A program made the translations under genes and the position numbers. The notes below the pieces were generated by a model that was given only the letters and a program-made list of their open reading frames with translations, made no database searches and was not told the origin of the DNA. From Alcaligenes aquatilis (GTDB lineage: Bacteria; Pseudomonadota; Gammaproteobacteria; Burkholderiales; Burkholderiaceae_B), in assembly GCF_003076515.1 (NCBI RefSeq), contig NZ_CP022390.1:930001-994000 (forward strand): a stretch of DNA of 64,000 bases, given 5' to 3'. This document shows, one piece after another, positions 17,680 to 40,119 of the stretch; position 1 is the first letter of the stretch; each line of letters opens with the position of its first letter.

Positions 17680-17860
17680 TTCTCTTCCCCTTGTTATTTG
17701 TATATGCTTCTTGCCACTGTTCGTTACTGAGCGAACAGAAGGGTCTTAAGGGATATCCTAGGAGTCTGGGCCTCTGGCGGTAATTGGCCTTTTGATGTAA
17801 ACCGTCTGGATTTTTGTAGTAAGCCACTCGGCCTAAGCTAAATGCTTCTTAAGAAAAAGC
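17680..17860. promoter_or_regulatory. pgaA leader and promoter region
   Basis: The space between pgaA (leftward) and the tRNA-Pro copy (rightward). It has a small inverted repeat GTTCG/CGAAC near 17717-17735 that could form a leader hairpin. In E. coli the pgaA leader is a CsrA target; the AGGGGA at the ribosome site would suit that, but no experiment is implied. Confidence 0.35.
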
Positions 17861-17897
17861 GTGCACAACAGAACAAACAGGGTGATGGCTTTATTCT

Positions 17898-17976
<79 letters not shown>

Positions 17977-17984
17977 GATTTTGA

Positions 17985-18018
17985 AAGGCCTACAGCAAAA
18001 ATGCTGTAGGCCTTTTTT
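17985..18018 (+). terminator. Terminator of the first tRNA-Pro copy
   Basis: A perfect 13-bp stem AAGGCCTACAGCA / TGCTGTAGGCCTT with a 4-nt loop and six T. It is nearly identical to the terminator after the second tRNA-Pro copy, differing mainly in the loop (A versus T). Confidence 0.9.
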
Positions 18019-18024
18019 CATTGC

Positions 18025-18690
18025 TTCGGGGATTTTGTGGAGATTCATTTTTCACCGATGACCCGGCCTTTTTCTCCGTGGCGTGACCACTGGCGCCTTT
18101 TCGGTGCTGTGAACAAGCTTCTTGATTTTGGCCTGAAGCTTGGGCAGGTCAGCGGCACAATGCTGAAACCGGCATTCGCGGGACGTTGATATAAATCCAC
18201 CCATTGCTCTGCTGCCCCAGGGCCTGGCTGCGCGTTATCCTGAGGCGTTCATGCGCGCCATCGGGTCGCTCTTGTGCGGAAAGATCCATGCGGGATCTTG
18301 TCCACGCTGGCCCGAAAAAACCGAACGGGCGACAGGATTCAAAACGACCAGCTTGCCCCTCGGTTCTTCATGCCCGATGCTTCAATACGAAAGGGCAAGG
18401 CTTACTGCTGCAACCACAGCAGAGCGTTCTGCGTCCTTGTAGTTTGCTTTCCCCTCCGTCACGGTAGCTGTGCAAAGGCAGGTGTTAGCAGGATTGGGAG
18501 TTCCATGCCCTCTAGTTGCAGTAGTCCTGCCACCCCGAGCGTGTGGGTGGGGGTATTGAAATGCTGCGGCTGGAGAGTCCGGCATTGGGTGTAGTTCGCT
18601 TGCTTATTTTGTAACAGTGCTATCTATATCCATGAAGAGCGATCATAGTGTCGTCAGGGAGATTTTTCCCTTGAATAATTAGGACATACA
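18025..18690. other. Gene-poor stretch before the cold-shock gene
   Basis: About 660 bp with several short overlapping frames, none with a ribosome site and a recognisable product. The last ~100 bp must hold the promoter and leader of the cold-shock gene. I searched by eye for integrase or transposase motifs and saw none, but a strongly decayed fragment could be missed. Confidence 0.4.
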
Positions 18691-26902: not shown

Positions 26903-26940
26903 AGAACCCATTATGAAATTTAAATTTCATAATGGGTTCT
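26903..26940. promoter_or_regulatory. 38-bp perfect palindrome with RpiR-operator-like core
   Basis: Left half AGAACCCATTATGAAATTT and right half its exact complement. The core half-site TGAAATTT is the same as in the inverted repeat that brackets the RpiR-type promoter 180 bp downstream, so it may be a distal operator. No T run follows, which argues against a simple terminator. Confidence 0.5.
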
Positions 26941-27104: not shown

Positions 27105-27154
27105 AATTGAAATTTAAATTTTATTAAGTATTATATGAAAAACAAATTTCAATT
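27105..27154. promoter_or_regulatory. RpiR-type gene promoter bracketed by an 11-bp inverted repeat
   Basis: AATTGAAATTT (27105-27115) and its exact complement AAATTTCAATT (27144-27154) are 28 bp apart. Between them lies a promoter: -35 TTGAAA (27107-27112) inside the left arm, 16-bp spacer, -10 TATTAT (27129-27134). The right arm ends 12 bp before the regulator start. The layout predicts autorepression by looping or cooperative binding of the downstream RpiR protein. Confidence 0.65.
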
Positions 27155-27166
27155 TTAGGTTGTGTC

Positions 27167-28012
27167 ATGGTCATCAAAGATTCGATCCTGGATATTCTCG
27201 ATGTCCTGCCCAGTGCGGAGCGGCGTTTGGCCGATGTGGTCCTGTCTCATATGGGGCAGCTGGCGACTTACTCCGCTCAGGAACTGGCCGAGAAAGCAGG
27301 TGTATCGGCGGCCACCGCGGTACGCTTTTTCCGGCGTTTGGGTTTTAACGGTTTTAACGAGTTTCGGGTCACGGCCCGCGAGCAAATGGGTGACGGCGCT
27401 CCCTTCAAGCGTTTGCACTCCATGTCCAGCAGCGGTATTCAGGCCGATATGACGCCGTTTATCAATGCAGACGTACAGAATATTTCCACCACCTTCCAGA
27501 ACATCACTGAACAGCATCTGGATAAGTTCACCCAAGCCGCTCTGAAAGCACGACGCATCTGGGTGTTTGGTTTCCGCAATGGCCAGATCCTGGCGTGCTA
27601 CGCCCACTCTTTACTGCAGCAGTTGCGCCCGGATGTGCATCTGGCGGTGGGCACGGTGGCTCATCTGACCGAGCAACTGGCTGATGTGGAAGCAGGGGAT
27701 CTGGCCCTCGTGATGGACTTTCGTCGCCGCTCGGTGCTTTTGCCTTCCTTGGTGGAGCATCTGCGGGGCGAGTCGGTACAGATGGCTTTTTTGACGGATG
27801 GCCTGGAAAGCTCCTTGCTGCGTTCGCAAGACATCGCATTCACGGTGGCAACACGCGGGGAGTACTTGTTTGACTCGCATACCGGCACGCTCAGCCTGAT
27901 CAATTATCTGGTCAGCCGGGTGGCCCTGCAGGCCGAGACGCAGGTTGCGCGCAAGTTGCAGAAGATTGAATCCATCCATCGCAGTTTTCAGGACTTGAAG
28001 TCCAATAATTAA
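27167..28012 (+). CDS. MurR/RpiR-family transcriptional regulator
   Basis: 281 residues. An N-terminal RpiR helix-turn-helix (~15-75, with YSAQELAEKAGVSAATAVRF and FFRRLGFNGFNEFR) is joined to a C-terminal SIS-type sensor domain (~120-255). Most RpiR proteins sense sugar phosphates, but those linked to amino acid or hydantoin catabolic genes are known. It is the first gene of the cluster, 21 nt before dpaL, so it is transcribed with its probable targets. The ligand is unknown; a cluster substrate or intermediate is the natural guess. Confidence 0.88.
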   Translation: MVIKDSILDILDVLPSAERRLADVVLSHMGQLATYSAQELAEKAGVSAATAVRFFRRLGFNGFNEFRVTAREQMGDGAPFKRLHSMSSSGIQADMTPFINADVQNISTTFQNITEQHLDKFTQAALKARRIWVFGFRNGQILACYAHSLLQQLRPDVHLAVGTVAHLTEQLADVEAGDLALVMDFRRRSVLLPSLVEHLRGESVQMAFLTDGLESSLLRSQDIAFTVATRGEYLFDSHTGTLSLINYLVSRVALQAETQVARKLQKIESIHRSFQDLKSNN

Positions 28013-28033
28013 ACCCATAAAAGTGGAGCAGAC

Positions 28034-29281
28034 ATGAACAAACATGCCGTTCGGGAGCAAGGCGCGGTGCAACTGTATCTGAACCCTCGTTGCGTTCAGG
28101 ACAGCCAGGAGTACGACGCTTCCTTGCAATCGATTTTGTCGGTAGCCGCCTTCGAGCAGGCTCAGGCCAGCATTGTGCAGTGGCCCGGTTACGCACCTAC
28201 CCCTTTGCGTCATTTGCCTGGTCTGGCCGCGCAGATGAAGGTGGGCGGGGTGTACTACAAGGATGAGGCCGGTCGTTTTGGTTTGGGCAGCTTCAAGGCT
28301 TTGGGTGGCGCTTATGCGGTCAACCGTTTGCTGTTGCGCCAGTTGCAAGCCCATACCGGCAATACCAGCCTGACGCTGGATGATCTGAAAAATCCTGCCT
28401 ACAAGGACTTTATTGCTGGCTTGACCGTAACTTGCGCGACCGATGGCAATCATGGCCGTTCGGTGGCCTGGGGGGCGAAGAATGCCGGTTGCCAGTGCGT
28501 GATCTATATCCATGAACACGTCAGTGCGGGTCGTGAGCAGGCCATTGCCTCTTACGGGGCCAAGGTGGTGCGCGTGCCCGGTAATTACGATGACTCGGTG
28601 CGTCAGGCCGCTGAAGATGCCAAAGAGCATGGTTATTTTGTGGTGTCCGATACGTCCTACCCTGGCTATATGGATGTGCCCAAGGATGTGATGCAGGGCT
28701 ACACCGTTATGGTGCAGGAAGCCCTGGACCAGATCGGTTCGGGCAAACCTGTCAGCCACGTCTTTATTCAAGGTGGTGTGGGTGGTTTGGCGGCAGCGGT
28801 GTGCGCGCATATGTGGGAGCGCCTGGGTGCCCAGCGTCCTCGTCTGATTGTGGTTGAGCCCAACAAGGCCGATTGCCTGTTCCAAAGTGCTGTGCAAGGT
28901 AAACCCGTCACGGTCACTGGCGATTTGAATACGGTGATGGCCGGTCTGGCTTGCGGCGAAATCTCCTTGCTGGCCTGGGAAATTCTGGACCCTGGCACCT
29001 ATGCCTATATGACGCTGGAAGACGATGCCGCCTTGCAAACCATGCGCCGTCTGGCCCGTGCCGATAAAGGGGATGCGCCGATTGTGGCGGGTGAGTCTGC
29101 TGTAGCCGGTGTGGCTGCTTGCATGGCTGTGTGCGAGCAAGCGGACTGGCGTCAGGCATTGGGTATTGATGAAAACAGTCAAATTCTATTTTTTGCCAGC
29201 GAAGGCGATACCGATGCAGAACTGTATCAGCGCATTGTCGGTATGAGCGCCAAAGAAGTGCTGGCTCAGGAGCCGGTATGA
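28034..29281 (+). CDS. dpaL: Diaminopropionate ammonia-lyase (YgeX/DpaL)
   Basis: A 415-residue PLP enzyme of fold type II that converts 2,3-diaminopropionate to pyruvate and two ammonia. The PLP lysine is K88 in RFGLGSFKALGGAYA. The acid that lets the E. coli enzyme use the D isomer is retained as D137 in ATDGNHGR. Also visible are the glycine-rich phosphate loop QGGVGGLAA and the ending FASEGDTDAELY. Alignment from memory with E. coli YgeX is good throughout. The family acts on both L and D isomers. It overlaps the next gene by 4 nt. Confidence 0.92.
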   Translation: MNKHAVREQGAVQLYLNPRCVQDSQEYDASLQSILSVAAFEQAQASIVQWPGYAPTPLRHLPGLAAQMKVGGVYYKDEAGRFGLGSFKALGGAYAVNRLLLRQLQAHTGNTSLTLDDLKNPAYKDFIAGLTVTCATDGNHGRSVAWGAKNAGCQCVIYIHEHVSAGREQAIASYGAKVVRVPGNYDDSVRQAAEDAKEHGYFVVSDTSYPGYMDVPKDVMQGYTVMVQEALDQIGSGKPVSHVFIQGGVGGLAAAVCAHMWERLGAQRPRLIVVEPNKADCLFQSAVQGKPVTVTGDLNTVMAGLACGEISLLAWEILDPGTYAYMTLEDDAALQTMRRLARADKGDAPIVAGESAVAGVAACMAVCEQADWRQALGIDENSQILFFASEGDTDAELYQRIVGMSAKEVLAQEPV

Positions 29282-30522
29282 ACAGTCCAGCCAGCACATG
29301 TTTAGCCATTAATGGCGAACGCCTGCTGCAGCGTATTGCGCAGTTGGCGCAGATTGGTGCGATCGATGGGGGCGGCGTCTGCCGACTGGCCCTGACGGAC
29401 GAGGACAAGGCAGGCCGCGATCAGGTGGTCAGCTGGATGCGTGATCTGGGCATGAGTGTGGAGATCGATCAGATCGGCAACATTATCGGGACACGCGCTG
29501 GCCGTCTGGATGTGGCGCCGGTTATGACGGGCTCGCACATTGATACCGTGCGTACCGGTGGACGCTACGACGGCAATCTGGGTGTGCTGGCTGGATTGGA
29601 AGTGGTGGCCAGCTTGAATGATGCCGACGTGCAGCTGGATCGTCCCTTGCAAGTGGTGGCCTTTACCAATGAAGAGGGCGCGCGCTTTGCTCCGGACATG
29701 ATGGGCAGCCTGGTGTTTCAAGGTGGCTTGTCCTTGCAAGAGGCGCTGGACACCGTGGGCATTGATGGCAGCACCGTGCGCGAGAACCTGGAACGTATTG
29801 GCTACGCCGGTTCCGTGCCTTGCGGCCAACCTGATGTGCATGCCTATATGGAACTGCATATTGAGCAAGGTCCGGTTCTGGAGCATGAAAGCATTGATAT
29901 CGGTGCGGTGACTGGTGTGCAAGGGATTTGCTGGCTGGAGTTCGAGGTGCAAGGTGTCTCCAACCATGCGGGCACCACGCCCATGCACCTGCGTCACGAT
30001 GCCGGTGTGGTGGCTCAGCAGATTGGCAGTTTTGTGCGTCAGCTGACTGAGCGCTACGGCCCGCCGCAATTGGGCACGGTAGGGCGCTGCGAGCTGTTTC
30101 CGAATCTGGTCAATGTGATCCCCAGTAAAGCCGTGTTTACTGTGGATTTGCGTAATGTGGACAAGGCCAGCCTGGATCAGGCCGAGCAGGAGGTGCTGGA
30201 TTTCGCCCGGCAGGCGGCCGAGCGTGAGGGTGTGCAGATCAAGCATCGCCATCTGGCCCGCTTTGATCCTGTGCAGTTTGATGAACGCTTGATCAGCAAG
30301 GTCGAGCAACACGCTAAGGATCTGGGCTGCTCGGTCAAGCGCATGCCCAGCGGTGCCGGACACGATGCGCAGATGCTGGCGCGTTCCTGCCCCACAGGCA
30401 TGATTTTTGTACCGAGTGTGCGTGGCCTGAGCCACAACCCGGCAGAGTTTACCCACGACAAAGACCTGATAGCGGGATGTTCGATTTTGCTATCGACCTT
30501 GGTGGAGTTGGCCCGTGAATAA
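29278..30522 (+). CDS. M20-family N-carbamoyl-L-amino acid hydrolase (AmaB/HyuC-like)
   Basis: 414 residues with the full motif set of the allantoate amidohydrolase / L-carbamoylase / beta-ureidopropionase group: GSHIDTVRTGGRYDGNLGV (metal ligands), FTNEEGARF, HIEQGPVLE, SNHAGTTPM, GAGHDAQM and RGLSHNPAEF. These dinuclear metal enzymes remove a carbamoyl group to release amino acid, CO2 and ammonia. Exact specificity cannot be read from sequence; context with diaminopropionate lyase favours an N-carbamoyl amino acid. It overlaps dpaL by 4 nt. Confidence 0.85.
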   Translation: MNSPASTCLAINGERLLQRIAQLAQIGAIDGGGVCRLALTDEDKAGRDQVVSWMRDLGMSVEIDQIGNIIGTRAGRLDVAPVMTGSHIDTVRTGGRYDGNLGVLAGLEVVASLNDADVQLDRPLQVVAFTNEEGARFAPDMMGSLVFQGGLSLQEALDTVGIDGSTVRENLERIGYAGSVPCGQPDVHAYMELHIEQGPVLEHESIDIGAVTGVQGICWLEFEVQGVSNHAGTTPMHLRHDAGVVAQQIGSFVRQLTERYGPPQLGTVGRCELFPNLVNVIPSKAVFTVDLRNVDKASLDQAEQEVLDFARQAAEREGVQIKHRHLARFDPVQFDERLISKVEQHAKDLGCSVKRMPSGAGHDAQMLARSCPTGMIFVPSVRGLSHNPAEFTHDKDLIAGCSILLSTLVELARE

Positions 30523-30603
30523 GCAGTAACCCCCCCCCCGATGACGGGACCGCCGCCACAAGAGCAAAGGCGGACCGCTTTTAACTACCTGGAGAGACAA
30601 AAC

Positions 30604-32202
30604 ATGAGCAACCTGCTTAAGGACCGCTTGCGTCCTGCCAAAACCTTAACTGCCGTCTGGGCTGCCCTTGCCATCACCGCTATTGCCCCCGTGGCGGTCA
30701 GTGCGCAAACCACGCTGACCGCCGTCATGGAGGCGCCCTTGCGCTCCCTGGACCCGGTCATTACCACCTCCTACATTGTGCGCAACTACGGCTATATGGT
30801 GTACGACACCTTGCTGGCAGAAGATGCGCAGGGGCAGGTCAAGCCTCAGATGCTGGAAGGCTGGAAAGTGTCCGAGGACGGCCAGACCTACACCATGACC
30901 TTGCGTGAAAACCTGCGCTGGCATGATGGCTCGCCCGTCACGGCTGAAGATGCGGTCGAGTCCATCAAGCGCTGGATTCAGTTGGACAAGATGGGCCAGA
31001 TCATGACGGAGTTTCTGACCAAGATGGAAGTCGTGGATGATCGCTCTTTTGTGATGCAGTTCTCCTTCCCGACCGATATTGCCCTGCGCGCCATGGGCAA
31101 GCCCAGCTCCTTGCCGTTGTTCGTCATGCCCAAGGAGGTGGCACGCACGCCAGTTAGCCAGGCGATTACTTCTACCGTGGGTTCGGGCCCATTCCGATTT
31201 GTGGAGAAGGAATACCGCCCAGGTGTGCAGGCCGTGTTCGAGAAAAACCCGGACTACGTACCCCGTAATGAGCCTGCCAGCGGCCTGGCCGGTGGCAAGC
31301 AGGTCAAGGTAGACCGTGTGCGTTGGGTCGCCATGCCGGATGCCATGACCGGGGTGAACGCGCTGCGCAGTGGCGAGATTGATGTGATCGACCAGGTTCA
31401 GCTGGACCTTTTGCCCCTGCTGCAAAACGAGTCGGACATTGTGCTGAATGCTTCTACGGCTCGGGGCGCGCAGACCGAGATGCGTTTTAACTTCCTGCAG
31501 CCGCCATTCAATAACAAGCAAGTACGTCAGGCCGCCATGATGGCGCTGAACCAGAAGCCTTTGATGCAGGCGCAGGTCGGCAACCCGGAATACTTTGAAA
31601 CGTGTGGGGCGGTGTTTGGCTGCCACAGCGTATTCCCGTCACAAGCCGGTTCTGAGGCCTACTTCAAGGGGGATGCCGCCGGTGCGAAAAAACTGCTGGA
31701 GCAGGCCGGTTACAAGGGCGAGCCCGTGGTCTTGCTGCATCCCACCGACTTCCTGACTTCGCCCGTGGTGCCGGTGATTGCCCAGCAACTGCGCAATGCC
31801 GGGTTCACCGTCAACGTGGAAGCCATGGACTGGCAAACCGTGCAGACCCGCCGCACCTCCAAGCGTCCCGTGCAAGAGGGCGGCTGGAGCATCATCACCA
31901 CTTATTCGGGGCTGGTGGACGTGAGCAATCCGCTGAGCTTCATGGCGGTGGCCTCCAATGGCGACAAGGCCTGGTTTGGCTGGCCGGATGTTCCTGCCAT
32001 TGAAAAGACACGCATGGAATTTGCCCGCTCCAGTGGCGAGTCCGAGCTGGGTCGTTTGGCCACGGATCTGCAAAAACACATCATGGATGAAGGTGTGATC
32101 GTCCCCCTTGGCGAGTTCAAGATGGTTAGCGCCATGCGCAAGAACCTGAATGGCTTTCTGCAAACCCCGGTTCCGGTCTTCTGGAATGTGGAGAAGCGAT
32201 GA
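30604..32202 (+). CDS. ABC transporter substrate-binding protein, family 5 (DppA/OppA-like)
   Basis: 532 residues from the ATG behind CTGGAGAGA; a longer frame would place 21 hydrophilic residues before the signal peptide. The signal runs to ~36 (APVAVSAQ). The mature part has family 5 landmarks: LRSLDPVITTSYIVRNYGYM, LRENLRWHDGSPVTAEDAV and VRQAAMMALN. Members bind peptides, nickel or opine-like compounds in the periplasm. A tract of ten C lies in the gap before it. It overlaps the permease gene by 4 nt. Confidence 0.9.
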   Translation: MSNLLKDRLRPAKTLTAVWAALAITAIAPVAVSAQTTLTAVMEAPLRSLDPVITTSYIVRNYGYMVYDTLLAEDAQGQVKPQMLEGWKVSEDGQTYTMTLRENLRWHDGSPVTAEDAVESIKRWIQLDKMGQIMTEFLTKMEVVDDRSFVMQFSFPTDIALRAMGKPSSLPLFVMPKEVARTPVSQAITSTVGSGPFRFVEKEYRPGVQAVFEKNPDYVPRNEPASGLAGGKQVKVDRVRWVAMPDAMTGVNALRSGEIDVIDQVQLDLLPLLQNESDIVLNASTARGAQTEMRFNFLQPPFNNKQVRQAAMMALNQKPLMQAQVGNPEYFETCGAVFGCHSVFPSQAGSEAYFKGDAAGAKKLLEQAGYKGEPVVLLHPTDFLTSPVVPVIAQQLRNAGFTVNVEAMDWQTVQTRRTSKRPVQEGGWSIITTYSGLVDVSNPLSFMAVASNGDKAWFGWPDVPAIEKTRMEFARSSGESELGRLATDLQKHIMDEGVIVPLGEFKMVSAMRKNLNGFLQTPVPVFWNVEKR

Positions 32203-33140
32203 TTGGGCTTATTTTCAAGCGCGTACTGGCCACCATCCCGGTATTGCTGATTGTGGCGCTGGTGATCTTTGTGGTCTTGCGCATGACACATGGCGATGCC
32301 GCGGTGCTGGTGGCGGGGGATAACGCGACGGATGCACAGATTGCAGAAATCCGTCATCAGATGGGGCTGGACCAGCCAGTGCCGGTGCAGTTCGTGCAGT
32401 GGCTGGGCAGCATGGTGCAAGGGGACTTTGGCACGTCCCTGATCTCCAGCCGCCCGGTCAAGGATCTGGTGCTGGATCGTCTGGGGCCTACGGTTTCACT
32501 GACCTTGTTGACTCTGGCCTACACCCTGGCCATTTCCATTCCGCTGGGGGTGTGCTCGGCCTGGTATAGAGGCAAGTCTCTGGATCGCTTTGTGATGGCA
32601 GGGTCGGTGGCGGGCTTTTCCGTGCCGGTATTCATCGTGGCTTACTTGTTGATCCTGCTGTTCTCGCTGGAGCTGCGCTGGTTGCCGGTACAGGGCTACA
32701 AGCCCTTGAGTGAAGGCCTGTGGGAACACCTGCGACATTTGATTCTGCCTGCGGTGTCCCTGGGCACGGTGTATATCGCCCTGATTACCCGCATTGTGCG
32801 CACCAGTGTGATCGATACCTTGAACGAGGACTACATCCGCACCGCCCGTGCCAAGGGCCTGAACGAGCGTCGTGTCCTGACACGTCACGCCCTGGGCAAT
32901 GCAGCGGTTCCCATCCTGACGATTATCGGCATCAGCATCACCATGTTGATCGGCGGGGTGGTGGTCACGGAATCGGTCTTCAACATTCCGGGGCTGGGAC
33001 GTTTGGTGCTGGATGCGGTGCTGTCCCGCGACTTTACGGTGATTCAGAGCCTGATCGTGCTGTTTTCGCTGGTGTATGTAGGGGTGAATCTGCTGATTGA
33101 TATCTCCTACATGCTGGTCGATCCCCGTATCGATTATTGA
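32199..33140 (+). CDS. ABC transporter permease, DppB-like
   Basis: 313 residues, about six transmembrane helices. The family start (FKRVLATIPVLLIVALVIFV), the periplasmic segment ATDAQIAEIRHQMGLDQPV and the cytoplasmic EAA loop (RTARAKGLNERRVLTRHALG) are all visible. It pairs with the next permease to form the channel of a peptide/nickel-type importer. Confidence 0.93.
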   Translation: MIGLIFKRVLATIPVLLIVALVIFVVLRMTHGDAAVLVAGDNATDAQIAEIRHQMGLDQPVPVQFVQWLGSMVQGDFGTSLISSRPVKDLVLDRLGPTVSLTLLTLAYTLAISIPLGVCSAWYRGKSLDRFVMAGSVAGFSVPVFIVAYLLILLFSLELRWLPVQGYKPLSEGLWEHLRHLILPAVSLGTVYIALITRIVRTSVIDTLNEDYIRTARAKGLNERRVLTRHALGNAAVPILTIIGISITMLIGGVVVTESVFNIPGLGRLVLDAVLSRDFTVIQSLIVLFSLVYVGVNLLIDISYMLVDPRIDY

Positions 33141-33167
33141 GCCCTCGCTTTTTACAGGTAGAACAAT

Positions 33168-34007
33168 ATGCAAAAGCTCAACAAATTGAAGAAAGTGGTC
33201 GCCAGCCATTCGGCCCGTGCCGCCTTGCTGTTCCTGATCCTGATGGCCGCCATGGCGATTTTTGCTCCCTTTCTGGGCACGCAAGATCCCACTCAACTGG
33301 ACCCCAGCGTTCGTCTGCAACCGCCTTCCGAGCAATTCTGGCTGGGGACGGATGCGCTGGGTCGGGATCTGTATTCCCGTGTGGTGTACGGGGCGCAAGT
33401 GTCTTTCATGGTGGGGTTCGGTGTCCTGGCCATCAGCGTGTTCTTTGGCGTGATTCTGGGTTCGCTGGCGGGTTACTTCCGCCGTCTGGATGCCGTCATC
33501 ATGCGAGTGATGGATGGTGTGATGGCCATCCCTGGCATCTTGCTGGCCATTGCGCTGGTGTCGGTGTCCGGTGCCAGCCTGACCACAGTGCTGATCGCCA
33601 TTGCTATCCCGGAGATTCCTCGCATGACGCGGCTGGTACGGGGCGTGATTCTTAGCGTGCGTTCCGAGCCGTATGTGGAAGCGGCCATGACGGTAGGGAC
33701 TTCGGCTTACGTGATCTTGTCGCGCCATATGTTCCCCAACACCTTCGCACCCTTGATTGTGCAGGGCACTTATGTGTTTGCCTCGGCGGTGCTGCTGGAA
33801 GCGATCTTGAGTTTCCTGGGGGCGGGCATCCCTCCCGAGATGGCCTCCTGGGGCAACATCATCGCTGAAGGTCGCCTGTATTTTCAGCTGATTCCCGGCA
33901 TCGTGCTGTACCCCGGCATTGTGCTGTCCATCACCATTCTCAGTATCAACGTCCTGGGCGACGCCTTGCGCGATGCTCTGGATCCCAAGCTGGTCACACG
34001 GCTGTAA
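33168..34007 (+). CDS. ABC transporter permease, DppC-like
   Basis: 279 residues with an N-terminal helix, the DppC-type motif LGTDALGRDLYSRVVYGAQV and an EAA-like loop near MTVGTSAYVILSRHMFPN. Around six helices. It lies 27 nt after the DppB-like gene and is followed by the ATPase gene after 24 nt. Confidence 0.93.
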   Translation: MQKLNKLKKVVASHSARAALLFLILMAAMAIFAPFLGTQDPTQLDPSVRLQPPSEQFWLGTDALGRDLYSRVVYGAQVSFMVGFGVLAISVFFGVILGSLAGYFRRLDAVIMRVMDGVMAIPGILLAIALVSVSGASLTTVLIAIAIPEIPRMTRLVRGVILSVRSEPYVEAAMTVGTSAYVILSRHMFPNTFAPLIVQGTYVFASAVLLEAILSFLGAGIPPEMASWGNIIAEGRLYFQLIPGIVLYPGIVLSITILSINVLGDALRDALDPKLVTRL

Positions 34008-34031
34008 GTGACGAGGGCAGGAGACATAACA

Positions 34032-35675
34032 ATGAATACCTCTACGACCAAACCCCAATGTGTTTTGTCAGTGAAGGACTTGTGCATTGAAACCAAAGCG
34101 GCTCAACCCCGCCAGTTAGTGAACAAGCTTAGCTTCGATGTGTATGCAGGCGAGACCTTGTGCATTGTGGGCGAATCCGGCTCGGGCAAATCCTTGACTT
34201 CCTTTGCCATCATGGGCTTGCTGCCGCCCGATACCTTGCGTGTCAGCCAGGGCAGCATCGAGCTGATGGGCGAGAACCTGTTGACCATGAACAAGGAGCA
34301 TTTGCTGTCCTTACGCGCTTCGGCCATGTCCATGGTGTTTCAGGAGCCCATGACAGCCTTGAACCCGGTGCAACGGGTGGGCGAGCAGATTGACGAAGTG
34401 ATCCGTATTCACGAAAAGAACAGCTCCCGGCAGGAGCGTCGCCAACGTGTGATCAATATGCTGGAGCGCGTGCGTTTGCCCGAGCCGGAAAAGCTCTTCA
34501 TGGCCTATCCGCATGAGCTGTCCGGTGGTCAGCGCCAGCGCATCATGATTGCCATGGCCTTGATCTTGCAGCCGCGCTTGTTGATTGCGGATGAACCCAC
34601 CACGGCACTGGACGTGACCACGCAAAAGCAGATTCTGAGTCTGATCAAGGAACTGCAAAGCGAATGCGGTACCTCGGTGATTTTTGTGACGCATGACTTT
34701 GGTGTGGTGGCGGATATTGCCGACCGGATTCTGGTCATGAAGCGTGGCGATAGCGTGGAGATGGGCACGTGTCAGCAGATTCTGTCCGACCCTAAAGAAG
34801 CCTATACCCGCTCTCTGATTGCTTCCGTTCCCAATGTGCATCCGCCAGCAAAAGAGGAAGTGCAAAACGAGATCGTGCTCAGCGCCCGTGGTCTGGGCAA
34901 GGTTTACGGCTCGGATTGCTGGTTCTCCAAGGGGCGCAAGATGCACGCGCTCAGCGACATCAATCTGGATATACGTCGTGATGAAGTGCTGGGTGTCGTG
35001 GGCGAGTCCGGCTCGGGCAAGTCTACTTTGGCCCGCTGCATTATTGGCCTGGTTGAGGCCAGCTCGGGGCAGATCACTCTGAACGGTGAAACCTTGCCCG
35101 CCGCCTGCAAGGACCGCAGCCTGGCGCAGCGGCGCAAAGTGCAGATCGTGTTTCAGGACCCGTATCGCTCGCTCAATCCTCGCGTGACGATTGGCCAGTC
35201 TTTGACTGAAGGCATGCACAACATCGGTGTTGATCCCCAAATCGCCATCGAGCGCGTGACCGAGGTCTTGTCCATTGTGGGCCTGGACGCGGATGTGCTG
35301 GAGCGCTATCCGCATCAGTTTTCGGGCGGCCAACGGCAGCGACTGTGTCTGGCCCGCGCCATTGTGATGGAGCCGGATGTACTGATTGCGGATGAGTCCG
35401 TGTCGGCGCTGGATGTGCTGGTTCAAGAACAGGTGCTCAAGTTGCTGGTGGACATCAAGCGCAAAACCGGCGTTGCCATCCTGTTCATTACCCATGACTT
35501 GCGTGTTGCCGCGCAGATTTCTGACCGCATTGTGGTGATGCAAAAGGGCCGGATTGTGGAGGCCGGGGACCCAGGGCGTGTCATTAGCCAGCCTAGCCAG
35601 GCTTACACCCGTGAACTGGTGGAATCCGCACCCGGCGTGCATTGGGATTTTCAGAATTTTTGTGCTTATGCCTGA
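34032..35675 (+). CDS. Fused double ABC ATPase (DppD-DppF / GsiA type)
   Basis: 547 residues carrying two complete ATPase domains, as in GsiA. Domain 1 has Walker A GESGSGKS (~50) and LSGGQRQR; domain 2 has GESGSGKSTLARC (~335), FSGGQRQRLCLARAI and DESVSALDVLVQEQ. The linker at ~265-295 holds the oligopeptide-transporter tail (YTRSLIASVPNVHPP). The start follows GCAGGAGA; the earlier frame start at 34008 lacks one. With the upstream genes it completes a five-domain importer. Confidence 0.92.
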   Translation: MNTSTTKPQCVLSVKDLCIETKAAQPRQLVNKLSFDVYAGETLCIVGESGSGKSLTSFAIMGLLPPDTLRVSQGSIELMGENLLTMNKEHLLSLRASAMSMVFQEPMTALNPVQRVGEQIDEVIRIHEKNSSRQERRQRVINMLERVRLPEPEKLFMAYPHELSGGQRQRIMIAMALILQPRLLIADEPTTALDVTTQKQILSLIKELQSECGTSVIFVTHDFGVVADIADRILVMKRGDSVEMGTCQQILSDPKEAYTRSLIASVPNVHPPAKEEVQNEIVLSARGLGKVYGSDCWFSKGRKMHALSDINLDIRRDEVLGVVGESGSGKSTLARCIIGLVEASSGQITLNGETLPAACKDRSLAQRRKVQIVFQDPYRSLNPRVTIGQSLTEGMHNIGVDPQIAIERVTEVLSIVGLDADVLERYPHQFSGGQRQRLCLARAIVMEPDVLIADESVSALDVLVQEQVLKLLVDIKRKTGVAILFITHDLRVAAQISDRIVVMQKGRIVEAGDPGRVISQPSQAYTRELVESAPGVHWDFQNFCAYA

Positions 35676-35794
35676 TTAACACGGCTGTTGGGGTTGTGTT
35701 GATTGTGCAGAGCTAAATCCTGCTGCTGGAGTGCGGCAGGGCGTATCGAATCCCGCTTAGGGCGGATCTTAATTGTTGATGGAGTTCAAATCTC
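35676..35794. promoter_or_regulatory. Gap inside the catabolic cluster
   Basis: 119 bp separate the ATPase gene from the D-carbamoylase gene, the longest gap in the cluster. A secondary promoter could lie here. I do not see a copy of the TGAAATTT operator half-site in it. Confidence 0.3.
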
Positions 35795-36730
35795 ATGTCC
35801 AGGTTTGTCAATGTAGCAGCGGCTCAGTTGGGTCCTATCGCACGCAGCGAAACTAAAAAACAGGTTGTTGACCGCTTGCTGGCCCATTTGCATCAGGCCA
35901 AGAAAATGGATGTTGATGTGGTGGTGTTTCCCGAGCTGGCACTGACCACGTTTTTCCCGCGCTGGTTCAGCGAGGATATTGCCGATTTTGATTGTTTTTA
36001 TGAAACCCAGATGCCGGGGCCGGACACCCAGCCCTTGTTTGATGCCGCTGCCAAATTGCAGATTGGTTTCTACCTGGGCTATGCCGAACTGGTCATTGAA
36101 AACGGCGTAAAGCGTCGCTTCAACGTATCCATTCTGGTCGATAAAACCGGCACGATCGTAGGCAAATATCGCAAGGTGCATTTGCCCGGTCACGGCCAGG
36201 ACGAGCCTTGGCGTGCATTCCAACATCTGGAGAAATACTACTTCGAGCCTGGTCACGAGTTCGGTGTGTGGTCGGCCTTCGGGGGCGTGATGGGCATGGC
36301 CTTGTGCAACGACCGGCGCTGGTCAGAAACCTACCGCGTCATGGGTTTGAAGGGCGTGGAAATGGTCATGCTGGGCTACAACACCCCGGTACACAACCCG
36401 CCCGCACCGGAGCACGACGATTTGTCCATGTTCCATAACCATTTGGTGATGCAGGCCGGGGCCTATCAGAACGGCACCTGGGTGGTGGGGGTGGCCAAGG
36501 CGGGGAGTGAAGAGGGCATCGAGATGATTGGCGGCAGTGCCATCATTGCGCCGTCTGGGGAGATTGTCGCGGCTTGCTCGACCAAGGGTGACGAGCTGGC
36601 GATTGCCCGTTGCGATCTGGATCTGTGCCATTCCTACAAGAGTACGACCTTCAACTTTGAGCGTCATCGTCGGCCAGAAGCGTATGGCCTGATCAGCTCG
36701 CAACGTGGAGCGGTGGTGCCATGGGCGTGA
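35795..36730 (+). CDS. N-carbamoyl-D-amino acid hydrolase (nitrilase superfamily)
   Basis: 311 residues. The Glu-Lys-Cys triad is clear: E47 in VVFPELALTTFFPRWF, K127 in GKYRKVHLPGH and C171 in ALCNDRRWSETYR. Other segments (GYNTPVHNPPAPEHD, NFERHRRPEAYGLI) match the Agrobacterium D-carbamoylase as I remember it, so the call is specific within the superfamily. It releases a D-amino acid, CO2 and ammonia from its N-carbamoyl derivative. It overlaps the next gene by 10 nt. Confidence 0.88.
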   Translation: MSRFVNVAAAQLGPIARSETKKQVVDRLLAHLHQAKKMDVDVVVFPELALTTFFPRWFSEDIADFDCFYETQMPGPDTQPLFDAAAKLQIGFYLGYAELVIENGVKRRFNVSILVDKTGTIVGKYRKVHLPGHGQDEPWRAFQHLEKYYFEPGHEFGVWSAFGGVMGMALCNDRRWSETYRVMGLKGVEMVMLGYNTPVHNPPAPEHDDLSMFHNHLVMQAGAYQNGTWVVGVAKAGSEEGIEMIGGSAIIAPSGEIVAACSTKGDELAIARCDLDLCHSYKSTTFNFERHRRPEAYGLISSQRGAVVPWA

Positions 36731-37902
36731 ACGAACATACAAAAATGGACCTGGTCTGGGATGCGGTCAGCCTGACGCAAGCCTTTGTGCGTATCCCCAG
36801 CTTGTCCGGGCAAGAGCAGGCCATGGCGGACTTTGTGCAGCAAGTCATGCGGGAGTTGGGTTTTGACCAGATTAGTGTGGACGACAAGGGGTCGGTGCTG
36901 GGCTTTGTCGGCCCGGCCCAGGCTCCGCTGGCCCTGCTGTTTGATGCCCATATGGATGTGGTGCCTATCGCCGGAACCTGGACGGTTGAGCCTTTTGGGG
37001 CGCAGATCAAAGATGGCCGCATGTATGGGCGCGGCACCAGTGATATGAAAGCAGGTTTGGCCGCCGCCCTGTGTGGCGCGGCAGCAGCGGCTCGTCGTGG
37101 TGCCTTGAAACAGCGTATTGCCGTGTCTGCCAGCGTGATGGAGGAGGTGATTGAAGGCTATGCCTTGTCCCACGCTCTGGAGCAATGCACGCCGGCTGCT
37201 GTGGTGATTTGTGAGCCATCGCGTTTGCGCATCATGGTGGGCCAGAAAGGGCGACAGGAGATTCTGTTGCGCTTGCAAGGCCGTCCAGCCCATGCGGCCT
37301 TGCCTCATCTGGGGGTGAATCCCATTCAGGCGGCAGCCAAGGCTATTTCTGCTTTGCAGACGCTGGATTTGCCCAAGGATGCGCAAGTGGGCCAAGCCTT
37401 GCTGGTGCCTACTGACATTATTTCCGACCCGCATCCTTCCATTTCCCTGATCCCTTCGTCCGTTACGGTACGTTTTGATCGCCGCACGCTGGTGGGTGAA
37501 AGCAGCGAATCGGTGTTGAAACAAATGGAGCAATGCTTGCAGGGTGCCGGTGTGGAGGGTTTTTCGCTGGAACTGGTGGACAGTCAGGTACAAACCTATA
37601 CAGGTCAGCAGGCCAGCCCGGAGCGGGACTTGCCCGCCTGGCGGCTGGATGAGTCCGCACCGTTGGCCCAAGCCATGGTGCAAGCGGTTCAGCAAGCCGG
37701 GCGTGTGGTGGAAATGGATACCTGGTGGTTTTGTACCAATGGTTCCGAGTCCGCCGGACGACGTGGCATTCCTACTATCGGCTTGGGACCGGGCGAGGAA
37801 GCACAGGCACATACGGCTGATGAGTCGGTAGCGATCGACGATGTTCTGGGGGCCAAGGACATTTACGAACAGCTGTGTATCCAACTGGCAGGACAAGCGT
37901 AA
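36721..37902 (+). CDS. M20-family metallohydrolase, YgeY-like
   Basis: 393 residues. Metal and catalytic motifs of M20: LLFDAHMDVVPIAGTW, MYGRGTSDMKAG, VSASVMEEV (general base pair) and the dimerisation domain from ~190. The last ~80 residues carry the second histidine region (EEAQAHTADESVAI). YgeY, the closest named group, lies next to ygeX (dpaL) in E. coli, and both genes recur together here. Likely an amidohydrolase or dipeptidase freeing a diaminopropionate-type amino acid; its substrate is not established. Confidence 0.8.
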   Translation: MGVNEHTKMDLVWDAVSLTQAFVRIPSLSGQEQAMADFVQQVMRELGFDQISVDDKGSVLGFVGPAQAPLALLFDAHMDVVPIAGTWTVEPFGAQIKDGRMYGRGTSDMKAGLAAALCGAAAAARRGALKQRIAVSASVMEEVIEGYALSHALEQCTPAAVVICEPSRLRIMVGQKGRQEILLRLQGRPAHAALPHLGVNPIQAAAKAISALQTLDLPKDAQVGQALLVPTDIISDPHPSISLIPSSVTVRFDRRTLVGESSESVLKQMEQCLQGAGVEGFSLELVDSQVQTYTGQQASPERDLPAWRLDESAPLAQAMVQAVQQAGRVVEMDTWWFCTNGSESAGRRGIPTIGLGPGEEAQAHTADESVAIDDVLGAKDIYEQLCIQLAGQA

Positions 37903-37921
37903 GAGCAATCGGAGACAAGTG

Positions 37922-39454
37922 ATGCGTATTGCAGTAGCGGGTTTTCAGCACGAGACCAATACCTTTGGCCCGGCCATGGCCACGATGGCGGACTTTGAGC
38001 ATGGGGGCGGCTGGCCAGGGATGTGCCGAGCCGAGGCCATCGAGCCTGCCTTGCGTGGGGCCAATATTCCGGCAGCCGGGTTTATGGCCGCCGCCGCACG
38101 AGCCGGGGTCGAGTGCGTCCCGCTACTGTGGGCCGCCGCCAGTCCCTCCGCGCCCGTCGAGGCAATGACTTACGAGGCAATCGTGGCGGAGATTCTGTAC
38201 CGCCTGGAGCAAGTTTTGCCCGTGGATGCGGTGTATCTGGATTTACATGGCGCCATGGTGGCCGAGCATCGCGATGATGGGGAAGGGCATTTGCTGGTTC
38301 TGGTGCGCGAGATGGTGGGACCGGATGTGCCGGTGGTCGCCAGTCTGGATTTGCACGCCAATGTCAGCGACACCATGCTGGCGCAGGCCGACATGCTGGT
38401 GGCTTACAAAACTTACCCGCATGTGGATATGGGACAAACGGGCGAGCGTACTTTCCAGGCGCTGATGCGATGTCTGCAAAGCGCTCATCGCCCGAAGCTG
38501 GCCTGGCATCGATTGCCTTTTCTGATCCCGGCGGTCTGGCAAAGCACCGAGATGGAACCGGCGGCCAGCCTGTACCGTCACTTGTCATCGCTGGAAGAAA
38601 TAGAAGGCGAGGGGAGCGTGTCGTTCGCCATGGGCTTTCCTGCTGCGGACGTGCCGGAATGCGGAGCGGTCTTGTGGGCCTACGCCCAGACACAGGAAGA
38701 AGCCGATAGCCGTTTGGCAGACTTTCTGGATGAGGTGCTTGATAAAGCCCAAGGCTTTCAAGGCAAGCTTTATGAACCGGACGAAGCCGTGCAATGGGCG
38801 CTGAGTCACCCCGGTAAAGGCCCGGTGATCATTGCCGATGCTCACGACAATCCCGGTGGCGGCGCCAGCTCCGATACCTGTGGTCTCTTGCGCGCCTTGC
38901 TGAAAGCCAAGGTATCGGATGCTGCTTTAGGCTTGATCGTGGACCCGGAAAGCGCTGCTCTGGTGCACCAGGCAGGGGCCGGTAAAACCATTGAGCTGTC
39001 TCTGGGCGGTAAATCCGGTGTCCCCGGTGATATGCCCTTGCATGCACGCTTTTATATCGAGTCCGTATCCGATGGCCAGTTCCGCGCCACCGGCCCGTAC
39101 TACGCAGGCTGTGCCATGAACCTGGGGCCCAGCGCCTGTTTGCGTATAGAGGGCGTGCGCATCGTTCTGGCCTCCTACAAGTCGCAAATGGCGGATCAAA
39201 GCATGTTCCGTTTTGTGGGTATCGAGCCGGAGCAGATGAAGGTACTGGTTCTGAAAAGCGCCGTGCACTTCAGAGCGGACTTTGGCAGCATTAGCGACCG
39301 CATCATTGTCGGAGCAGCACCGGGAGGAGTTTCCATGCGCACGACAGACTTGCCATGGGAGCGTTTACCGGCAGAGCGCCTGCTGTATCCCGGTGGCCCC
39401 AGCCTGTCCCAATGGCGAATCATGCAATCAGAAGGGCGGGCCTATTCACAATAG
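37922..39454 (+). CDS. M81-family metallopeptidase (MlrC-like)
   Basis: 510 residues from the ATG behind GGAGACAAGT. N-terminal MlrC domain with GFQHETNTFGP, DLHGAMV, SLDLHANVSD and KTYPHVDMGQTGER supplying zinc ligands; the C-terminal half is the MlrC C-domain (DAHDNPGGGASSDT). The founding member cleaves linearised microcystin fragments; most relatives are uncharacterised but often sit beside peptide-type ABC importers. It is the last gene of the cluster, 19 nt after the M20 gene. Confidence 0.88.
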   Translation: MRIAVAGFQHETNTFGPAMATMADFEHGGGWPGMCRAEAIEPALRGANIPAAGFMAAAARAGVECVPLLWAAASPSAPVEAMTYEAIVAEILYRLEQVLPVDAVYLDLHGAMVAEHRDDGEGHLLVLVREMVGPDVPVVASLDLHANVSDTMLAQADMLVAYKTYPHVDMGQTGERTFQALMRCLQSAHRPKLAWHRLPFLIPAVWQSTEMEPAASLYRHLSSLEEIEGEGSVSFAMGFPAADVPECGAVLWAYAQTQEEADSRLADFLDEVLDKAQGFQGKLYEPDEAVQWALSHPGKGPVIIADAHDNPGGGASSDTCGLLRALLKAKVSDAALGLIVDPESAALVHQAGAGKTIELSLGGKSGVPGDMPLHARFYIESVSDGQFRATGPYYAGCAMNLGPSACLRIEGVRIVLASYKSQMADQSMFRFVGIEPEQMKVLVLKSAVHFRADFGSISDRIIVGAAPGGVSMRTTDLPWERLPAERLLYPGGPSLSQWRIMQSEGRAYSQ

Positions 39455-39628
39455 CTTTGCATTTTTTACCCAAGTAGGTATACTCCTGCCTTCACGGTTT
39501 TGATGCAGATTAGCTCGGTAAAACAAGCTTTGAAAATCAGACCGCCTGTTCAGATAAGTGTGGATTTCGATCGGTGCCGGGATTGACTATCAATAATCTC
39601 AAATCGAAAGAAAAAATCTAAAAAACAC

Positions 39629-39657
39629 TTGCAAGAAAGGAAGAACAGGGTTATAGT
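39629..39657 (+). promoter_or_regulatory. Promoter of the second tRNA-Pro copy
   Basis: TTGCAA (39629-39634), 17 bp, TATAGT (39652-39657), ending 11 nt before the tRNA. The equivalent positions at the first copy read GTGCAC and GATGGC with the same spacing, so that promoter is degraded. Confidence 0.7.
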
Positions 39658-39665
39658 TTAATTCT

Positions 39666-39744
<79 letters not shown>

Positions 39745-39750
39745 GATTTT

Positions 39751-39786
39751 AAAAGGCCTACAGCATTTTTGCTGTAGGCCTTTTTT
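39751..39786 (+). terminator. Terminator of the second tRNA-Pro copy
   Basis: Perfect 15-bp stem AAAAGGCCTACAGCA / TGCTGTAGGCCTTTT with a T4 loop and a T run. Same element as at 17985. Confidence 0.9.
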
Positions 39787-40119
39787 CATTGCTGCGGGGA
39801 ATTCTGTTTCCACGAGCTTTTCCTTCTTCTCGTCTGTGTGCTTGCGAGCGTGCTCTGCCGGCAGTTCTAGTTCTGTTTCTGGTATGAGCAGAGTACTCAC
39901 TAAAATAAAAAGTGAGTGCACATTTAAAAGTTATTTTCTTGGCACATCGGCCTCGCTTATTTTGCGATTCTTTTCTGCTCTGATACAAGAATGAACGGAA
40001 TAGTGCTCTTCGTTTATTCCCAAAATTTTCCTCAACAGATTTTGCAGAAGTTATTTTTGAGCTTTGTCTCTCTTTAATCTGCTAGCATGCGATTTTGATT
40101 ATTGTTCTGGAGAGCAGTA
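39787..40119. other. AT-rich intergenic region, no gene seen
   Basis: About 330 bp of lower GC. It shares only its first ~20 bp with the sequence after the first tRNA copy, so the duplication ends near 39805. The promoter of the 121-residue membrane protein gene must lie near its end. Confidence 0.4.

Follow-up and report, generated by a model that had tools for sequence, protein, structure and literature searches.

In the reductive breakdown of uric acid described for Escherichia coli and Clostridioides difficile, uric acid is converted to yanthine and ring opening by SsnA and HyuA yields 2,3-diureidopropionate (DUPA); the two ureido groups of this intermediate are removed by YgeW (or UacY) and YgeY, and YgeX then generates pyruvate, as set out in the available portions of Li et al. 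2025 (PMC12507026). The same portions report that E. coli YgeY and YgeX together made pyruvate from albizziin in vitro, and refer to HyuA as a phenylhydantoinase. Carbamoylase, N-carbamoyl, hydantoinase and HyuC do not occur as word-starts in PMC12507026, and searches of the open literature, mostly without full texts, turned up no proposal that carbamoylases act in this pathway. According to the available portions of PMC12990295, the order in which the ureido groups are removed and the R configuration of the intermediates are unsettled. Here, we describe an operon from Alcaligenes aquatilis that probably represents the lower half of this pathway in a form fed by an imported substrate. It lies in a window (the whole stretch of DNA analysed, 64,000 nt) corresponding to positions 930001-994000 of a single-contig genome of 3.84 Mb. 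The operon comprises ten open reading frames, all on the + strand, between 27167 and 39454:

27167..28012, + strand: RpiR-family regulator with HTH_6 and SIS domains
28034..29281, + strand: DpaL (equivalent to YgeX), diaminopropionate ammonia-lyase
29278..30522, + strand: HyuC, an M20 HyuC-type carbamoylase/ureidohydrolase and the proposed 3-ureido remover
30541..32202, + strand: SBP_bac_5, the importer's family-5 solute-binding protein
32199..33140, + strand: OppB-type permease of the importer
33168..34007, + strand: OppC-type permease of the importer
34008..35675, + strand: the importer's fused double ATPase, OppD-OppF type (OppDF)
35795..36730, + strand: D-carbamoylase (DCase) of the nitrilase superfamily, the proposed 2-ureido remover, with E47, K127 and C171 conserved
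36721..37902, + strand: YgeY-like M20 hydrolase, approximately 30% identical to E. coli YgeY
37922..39454, + strand: M81 (MlrC-like) family protein, restricted to the same genus among the clusters read

These families and the single direction of transcription are as given in the original prediction, made from this DNA alone. Its description of the junctions as short gaps or 4-nt overlaps holds for most of them (RpiR-DpaL, 21 nt; DpaL/HyuC, 4-nt overlap; HyuC-binding protein, 18 nt; binding protein/OppB, 4-nt overlap; OppB-OppC, 27 nt; OppC-OppDF, 0 nt; YgeY-like-M81, 19 nt), the departures being a gap of 119 nt between OppDF and DCase and an overlap of 10 nt between DCase and the YgeY-like gene. 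The M81 gene likely starts at the ATG at 37922, 19 nt past the preceding stop, rather than at 37841.

We propose that the RpiR regulator would bind TGAAA-N6-TTTCA sites and control the operon, and that the ABC importer would take up DUPA or a mono-ureido product such as albizziin. Of the two ureido groups, the one at position 2 (R/D configuration) would be cut off by the DCase and the one at position 3 by HyuC, the latter possibly with help from the YgeY-like M20 protein; the two carbamoylases would in this way stand in for YgeW/YqeA (or UacY) and YgeY. DpaL would then convert 2,3-diaminopropionate to pyruvate and ammonia. Within this scheme we infer the substrate, the position served by each carbamoylase, the stereochemistry, the cargo of the importer, the binding of the regulator and the outside source. 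That a carbamoylated diaminopropionate is the substrate had already been predicted and is the best reading of the locus, being well supported; albizziin, in view of the pyruvate formed from it in vitro, is a plausible intermediate.

Compared with the reductive uric-acid pathway, as given in the available parts of PMC12507026 and PMC12990295, the proposed route shares the last step catalysed by DpaL and the removal of two ureido groups from a C3 diamino acid. It differs in that two hydrolytic carbamoylases would replace YgeY and the carbamoyltransferase YgeW with its partner YqeA (or UacY), with no carbamoyl phosphate expected, and in that the window has an importer but no upper pathway above cut-off. 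Hydantoin utilisation clusters, which combine hydantoinase, racemase and L-/D-carbamoylases, draw on the same two carbamoylase superfamilies, whereas the window operon lacks hydantoinase and racemase and is coupled to DpaL. The E. coli ygeW-ygeX-ygeY-hyuA-yqeA locus (L079) places DpaL beside an M20 hydrolase, as in the window, but has no gene annotated as a carbamoylase or family-5 importer.

The window DpaL scores 523 bits against NF006058, above the cut-off of 276, and 357 bits against TIGR03528, below the cut-off of 532. Its residues K88, D137 and D206, hand-counted from the alignment, correspond to K77, D120 and D189 in the chain of 4d9g, and the expectation that the lyase keeps the acid used for the D isomer is upheld insofar as both acids, which serve the D and L isomers, are present. 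HyuC passes TIGR01879 (432 bits, cut-off 204), and its stretches SHxD, YDG, NEEG, HIEQG and SHN align with solved relatives. No NCBIfam model reached its cut-off for the DCase, the best solved relative of which is the D-carbamoylase 8i99 (421 bits); E47, K127 and C171, the residues of the Glu-Lys-Cys catalytic triad, are invariant across the nine relatives aligned. The YgeY-like protein scores 369 bits with NF009555 (cut-off 321) and 232 with TIGR03526 (cut-off 321.5), the M81 protein matches PF07364 with 334 bits, and the structure of the binding protein, predicted from a six-sequence alignment, has a mean pLDDT of 61.6.

The link to uric acid, traced with the E. coli K-12 locus as the reference for urate-pathway genes, is clearest in Ca. 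Symbiopectobacterium NZEC151. Here, approximately 17 kb hold HyuC and DCase (58% and 68% identical to the window proteins) together with a xanthine-dehydrogenase-like enzyme and with YgeX, HyuA, YgfK and SsnA (67%, 66%, 69% and 70% identical to their E. coli counterparts), and YgfK, SsnA, DpaL and D-hydantoinase all score above curated cut-offs. In this organism SsnA, YgfK and HyuA, the upper genes of the reductive pathway, adjoin HyuC-DCase; in a second Symbiopectobacterium genome (G274), YgeX and YgfK are fragmented. Five further loci, four from Acidimicrobiales and one from Acidobacteria, likewise have HyuC-DCase next to genes resembling those for xanthine dehydrogenase and SsnA. One of these five (L155) encodes the amino-terminal part of YgfK (438 bits against a cut-off of 835) and a D-hydantoinase above cut-off, and the Acidobacteria locus encodes a DpaL above the NF006058 cut-off. 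An F420-dependent-oxidoreductase-like gene occurs at L142. In G280, a betaproteobacterial genome that also contains HyuC-DCase, there are a xanthine-dehydrogenase-like gene, a match of 224 bits to SsnA and part of YgfK on a different contig.

For the DISPLACEMENT test, 11 whole genomes, several of them draft or metagenome assemblies in which absence is not final, were searched at E <= 1e-20 for YgeW and at E <= 1e-40 for the YgeY family. Both were unmatched in eight, namely the two Symbiopectobacterium genomes, the four Acidimicrobiales, the Acidobacteria and G280. The Superficieibacter genome has a YgeY-family match and no YgeW match, and its cluster contains DCase, an amino-acid-type importer, YgeX and a YgeY-like gene whose product is 32% identical to E. 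coli YgeY and scores 472 with NF009555 (cut-off 321), an arrangement to be expected if DCase replaces YgeW; SsnA was unmatched there at 1e-45. In the window genome the YgeY-like match is the operon's own gene and YgeW was unmatched at 1e-20. The simplest reading is that DCase would stand in for YgeW and HyuC for YgeY.

The original prediction had instead allotted one carbamoylase to each isomer: carbamoyl-diaminopropionate of either hand, derived from plant albizziine or from ureido/diaminopropionate peptides such as the tuberactinomycins, would be processed by HyuC if L and by DCase if D, with the M81 and M20 proteins opening peptides. Such a model accords with the naming of the enzyme classes as L- and D-carbamoylases, with the retention of both D137 and D206 in DpaL and with the presence of an MlrC-like protein and a peptide-type importer in the operon. 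However, because the HyuC-DCase pair of Symbiopectobacterium stands, within a urate cluster, in the place of the unmatched YgeW and YgeY, one carbamoylase per ureido position would appear to fit better than one per isomer, which is probably wrong; moreover, the intermediate of the pathway has two ureido groups. M81 was found in none of the best 80 named loci from a scan of GTDB species genomes, and MFS or TRAP carriers take the place of the peptide-type importer in several related clusters. Taken as a whole, we regard the either-hand model as unlikely, and its peptide component was set aside on account of the restriction of M81 to same-genus clusters and the MFS/TRAP carriers of several relatives.

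Among 268 genomes of the bacterial family, DpaL is found in 84 (E <= 1e-60) and DCase in 130 (E <= 1e-80). The DCase scores show a gap, with 48 matches at 518 bits or above and the next six at 492-500, and a DpaL gene lies at most 8 kb away on the same strand for 41 of the 48 top-scoring DCases as against none of the next six, this adjacency test covering the top 54 DCase matches. Five of the seven exceptions start at most 1.7 kb from a contig start; another belongs to a genome with no DpaL match (G263), and the last, in a same-genus genome (G056; locus L253), is a remnant with part of OppDF, DCase and M81, the other operon genes being unseen in the 20 kb read. Viewed from the lyase, 41 of 89 DpaL matches have a top-scoring DCase nearby, with none among those ranked 55 and lower.

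The gene set proved to be conserved, as had been anticipated. In the 40 DpaL loci read, the whole set occurs at 93-100% identity in five same-genus genomes (L039-L043). The core of DpaL, HyuC and DCase is also met with in further genera and classes, accompanied by differing importers (ABC, MFS, TRAP), the carriers of L046 and L058 having been assigned with Pfam; the grouping is accordingly more than a chance one. Genomes of genus g2 have the order RpiR-DpaL-HyuC-DCase-MFS-YgeY-like, and two loci of genus g4 (L058, L069) have TRAP-type genes ahead of the core and no YgeY-like gene. The predicted co-occurrence of DpaL with both carbamoylases is recurrent, but its extension to M81 is confined to the same genus (5 of the 40 family loci read around DpaL, plus the G056 remnant). 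Two further features of these clusters were seen. Many DpaL matches in genus g43 have one in-stretch stop, mostly TGA, and D-aminoacylase-like genes adjoin DpaL-DCase clusters at L061 (5033-6514), L068 (3164-4597), L114 and L138, that of L061 being an Amidohydro_3 protein, the class of UacY, by Pfam.

A candidate regulatory element is also shared. Upstream of the RpiR gene, the window contains three copies of a predicted operator:

26914..26929, + strand: predicted RpiR operator, a perfect 16-nt palindrome, TGAAATTTAAATTTCA, 253 nt before RpiR
27108..27123, + strand: predicted operator copy 2, with one mismatch, at -59, overlapping a -35/-10-like pair at 27107-27134
27136..27151, + strand: predicted operator copy 3, TGAAA-N6-TTTCA, at -31, just ahead of the RpiR start

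Within 300 nt upstream of the RpiR match, 34 of 36 clusters have TGAAA-N6-TTTCA when one mismatch is allowed and 26 have an exact copy, compared with 0.29 and 0.0 clusters, respectively, in mononucleotide shuffles; the 36 are those with RpiR on the cluster's strand and include close relatives, which are not independent. Exact palindromes number 38 in 2.07 Mb from 121 loci, and 36 of these are, by position, next to the RpiR gene of a cluster. A spacing of 28-30 nt between copies is frequent, and the palindrome is common to clusters with DpaL and to clusters with other pyridoxal-phosphate (PLP) enzymes. When the region was scanned for promoters and terminators, the numbers were at chance level, promoter-like sites being no commoner than in shuffles, and these scans are given no weight here.

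GTDB species genomes were also scanned with the nine-row DCase alignment, and the results that follow concern the best 80 loci, some of which are short contigs in which the absence of a partner is a soft observation. Twenty-one are Bradyrhizobium-type loci (one labelled Frankia). Among the other 59, HyuC of at least 50% identity lies within 4 kb in 43 and a diaminopropionate lyase is present in 33; both partners occur in 29 loci and at least one in 47. Of the 29 with both, five have an MFS gene (Achromobacter, Cupriavidus, Pandoraea, Paraburkholderia), four have TRAP genes (Thauera, Rhodovibrio, Kiloniellaceae, Roseospira), one has a family-5 importer (Zeimonas) and 19 have none of the three carrier types, by the references used. 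Some genomes without DpaL above cut-off have other PLP enzymes in the cluster. At L107 (10016-13896), as judged by Pfam, the genes that follow HyuC-DCase encode not DpaL but two enzymes of PALP fold (388 and 486 aa) and a serine dehydratase; L111 and L113 resemble this locus by their reading frames, and L155 has two PALP-like genes. It is possible that such enzymes provide an alternative ending for diaminopropionate. Separately, Bradyrhizobium-type loci such as L101, L106 and L108 encode close relatives of the window DCase, with neither DpaL nor HyuC nearby, and three DCases of this type adjoin a related family-5 ABC importer.

Another reading is that the operon might serve the use of N-carbamoyl amino acids and hydantoins in general, with DpaL handling one product of many. 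Other D-carbamoylases do sit with dihydropyrimidinase, racemases or D-amino-acid transaminase, which indicates general roles for the class, and the Bradyrhizobium-type relatives without nearby DpaL and HyuC would be at home in such a setting. Against this, the operon has no hydantoinase or racemase and its genome no D-hydantoinase above cut-off, the top-scoring family DCases are linked with DpaL in the proportion given above, and a single palindrome is common to clusters with different carriers; we consider so broad a role improbable. Still less credible, and indeed very improbable, is that the substrates are extracellular N-acyl, rather than N-carbamoyl, conjugates of diaminopropionate, with M81 and the YgeY-like M20 protein as the key hydrolases. 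Amides and peptides are substrates of the M20 and M81 families, and D-aminoacylase-like genes occur in 4 of the 59 named non-Bradyrhizobium loci as well as in family loci; however, alongside the lack of M81 in the 80 named loci, a YgeY-like gene was found in just 7 of the 59 at the thresholds used, as against HyuC in 43.

Phylogenetic trees were built for both carbamoylases. That of the DCases, with 97 rows, puts the window protein in a supported 42-row set with both Symbiopectobacterium proteins, that of Superficieibacter and 21 Bradyrhizobium-type rows, and a wider supported branch of 91 rows takes in every DpaL-linked and every SsnA-linked row. In the HyuC tree (70 rows, 65 of them different, built by a quick method), the window protein and all seven SsnA-linked rows fall in a supported 60-row set, from which the paralogue in the window genome and three plasmid rows linked to hydantoinase or racemase are excluded, the tree having long branches and the region outside the 60-row set being uncertain. 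A loop of the form NTP-x-H-[NY] is present, as read by eye, in 87 of the 95 DCase rows for which it was captured, the loop of two further rows being uncaptured. It is absent in eight, comprising L154 and L159, both without a partner nearby, and all but one of the seven rows for plasmid DCases from other contexts. Since the loop also occurs in the Bradyrhizobium-type rows and in L257, a plasmid row linked to a racemase, it does not mark the link to DpaL alone.

In the window genome the upper part of the pathway fell below the cut-offs applied: SsnA reached at best 167 bits (cut-off 455.5), a YgfK-type yanthine reductase 192 bits in a match limited to positions 402-835 (cut-off 835; the search did not extend to UacX or F420-type reductases) and a HyuA-type D-hydantoinase 226 bits (cut-off 393), in keeping with the earlier observation that the operon contains no hydantoinase. 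There is no UacY D-aminoacylase-like hydrolase in the operon, the rest of the genome not having been searched for one. With no upper pathway above cut-off, the substrate of the operon would have to come from outside, and with no HyuA, the entry point would be DUPA or a mono-ureido product. As to its origin, L-albizziine of plants may be a source, as had been suggested, but reductive purine breakdown accounts better for the gene neighbourhoods. Two weak SsnA-like amidohydrolases (23% identical) adjoin permeases 31-41% identical to UacT, so that the window strain may use purines in another way. At approximately 2.903-2.909 Mb (L184, 13447-19280), a row of genes encodes an ABC importer together with an SsnA-like amidohydrolase, a hydantoinase-like enzyme and a paralogue of HyuC (37%); it includes, at approximately 2.905-2.909 Mb, the best SsnA-like and second-best hydantoinase-like matches of the genome. 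This cluster is distinct from the operon and, on its gene content, might encode another ureide-type pathway.

A number of results weigh against the derivation of the operon from the reductive uric-acid pathway. As the window genome has no SsnA, YgfK or D-hydantoinase above cut-off, the connection to urate comes from its relatives, and of these the Acidimicrobiales and Acidobacteria have SsnA-like proteins that score under the cut-off and DCases that fall outside the 42-row set. The 91-row DCase branch includes three of the seven plasmid DCases from other contexts. Strict replacement is disfavoured by a SAR324 genome that has YgeW, YgeY and YqeA besides HyuC-DCase. The YgeY-like protein of Superficieibacter passes one of two YgeY models, scoring 261 with TIGR03526 (cut-off 321.5), and that of the window has only the modest identity to E. 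coli YgeY listed above. Neither HyuC nor DpaL lies near any of the 21 Bradyrhizobium-type DCases or near 12 of the other 59 among the best 80 loci; DpaL was unmatched at 1e-60 in 7 of 12 Bradyrhizobium-type genomes tested, and was absent above cut-off in 10 of 18 tested genomes with HyuC-DCase or DCase. Finally, the palindrome was not found before the RpiR genes of Symbiopectobacterium and Superficieibacter.

Downstream of the M81 gene is a tRNA-Pro gene at 39668, and a tRNA-Pro follows the M81 gene in all six same-genus loci checked. A direct repeat of 182 nt, 88% identical between its copies at 17854-18035 and 39622-39803, contains a tRNA-Pro(GGG) gene in each copy; the two copies flank a segment of 21.8 kb of which the operon forms the right end.

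It is about as likely as not that many proteobacteria keep only the lower half of the pathway, with a dedicated importer and a shared RpiR operator, as a cross-feeding guild sustained by the ureido acids that anaerobic degraders of purines release. If the operon does act as such a lower half on imported substrate, it would provide a concrete substrate for many proteobacterial DpaL-carbamoylase operons. It would also bear on two points left open in the available portions of PMC12990295, namely the order of ureido removal and whether the configuration of the intermediates is R/D; were the step of YgeW carried out by a D-specific carbamoylase, this would speak for an R intermediate from which the 2-ureido group is removed. 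Furthermore, simple hydrolases could replace YgeW/YqeA in uric-acid-degrading probiotics.

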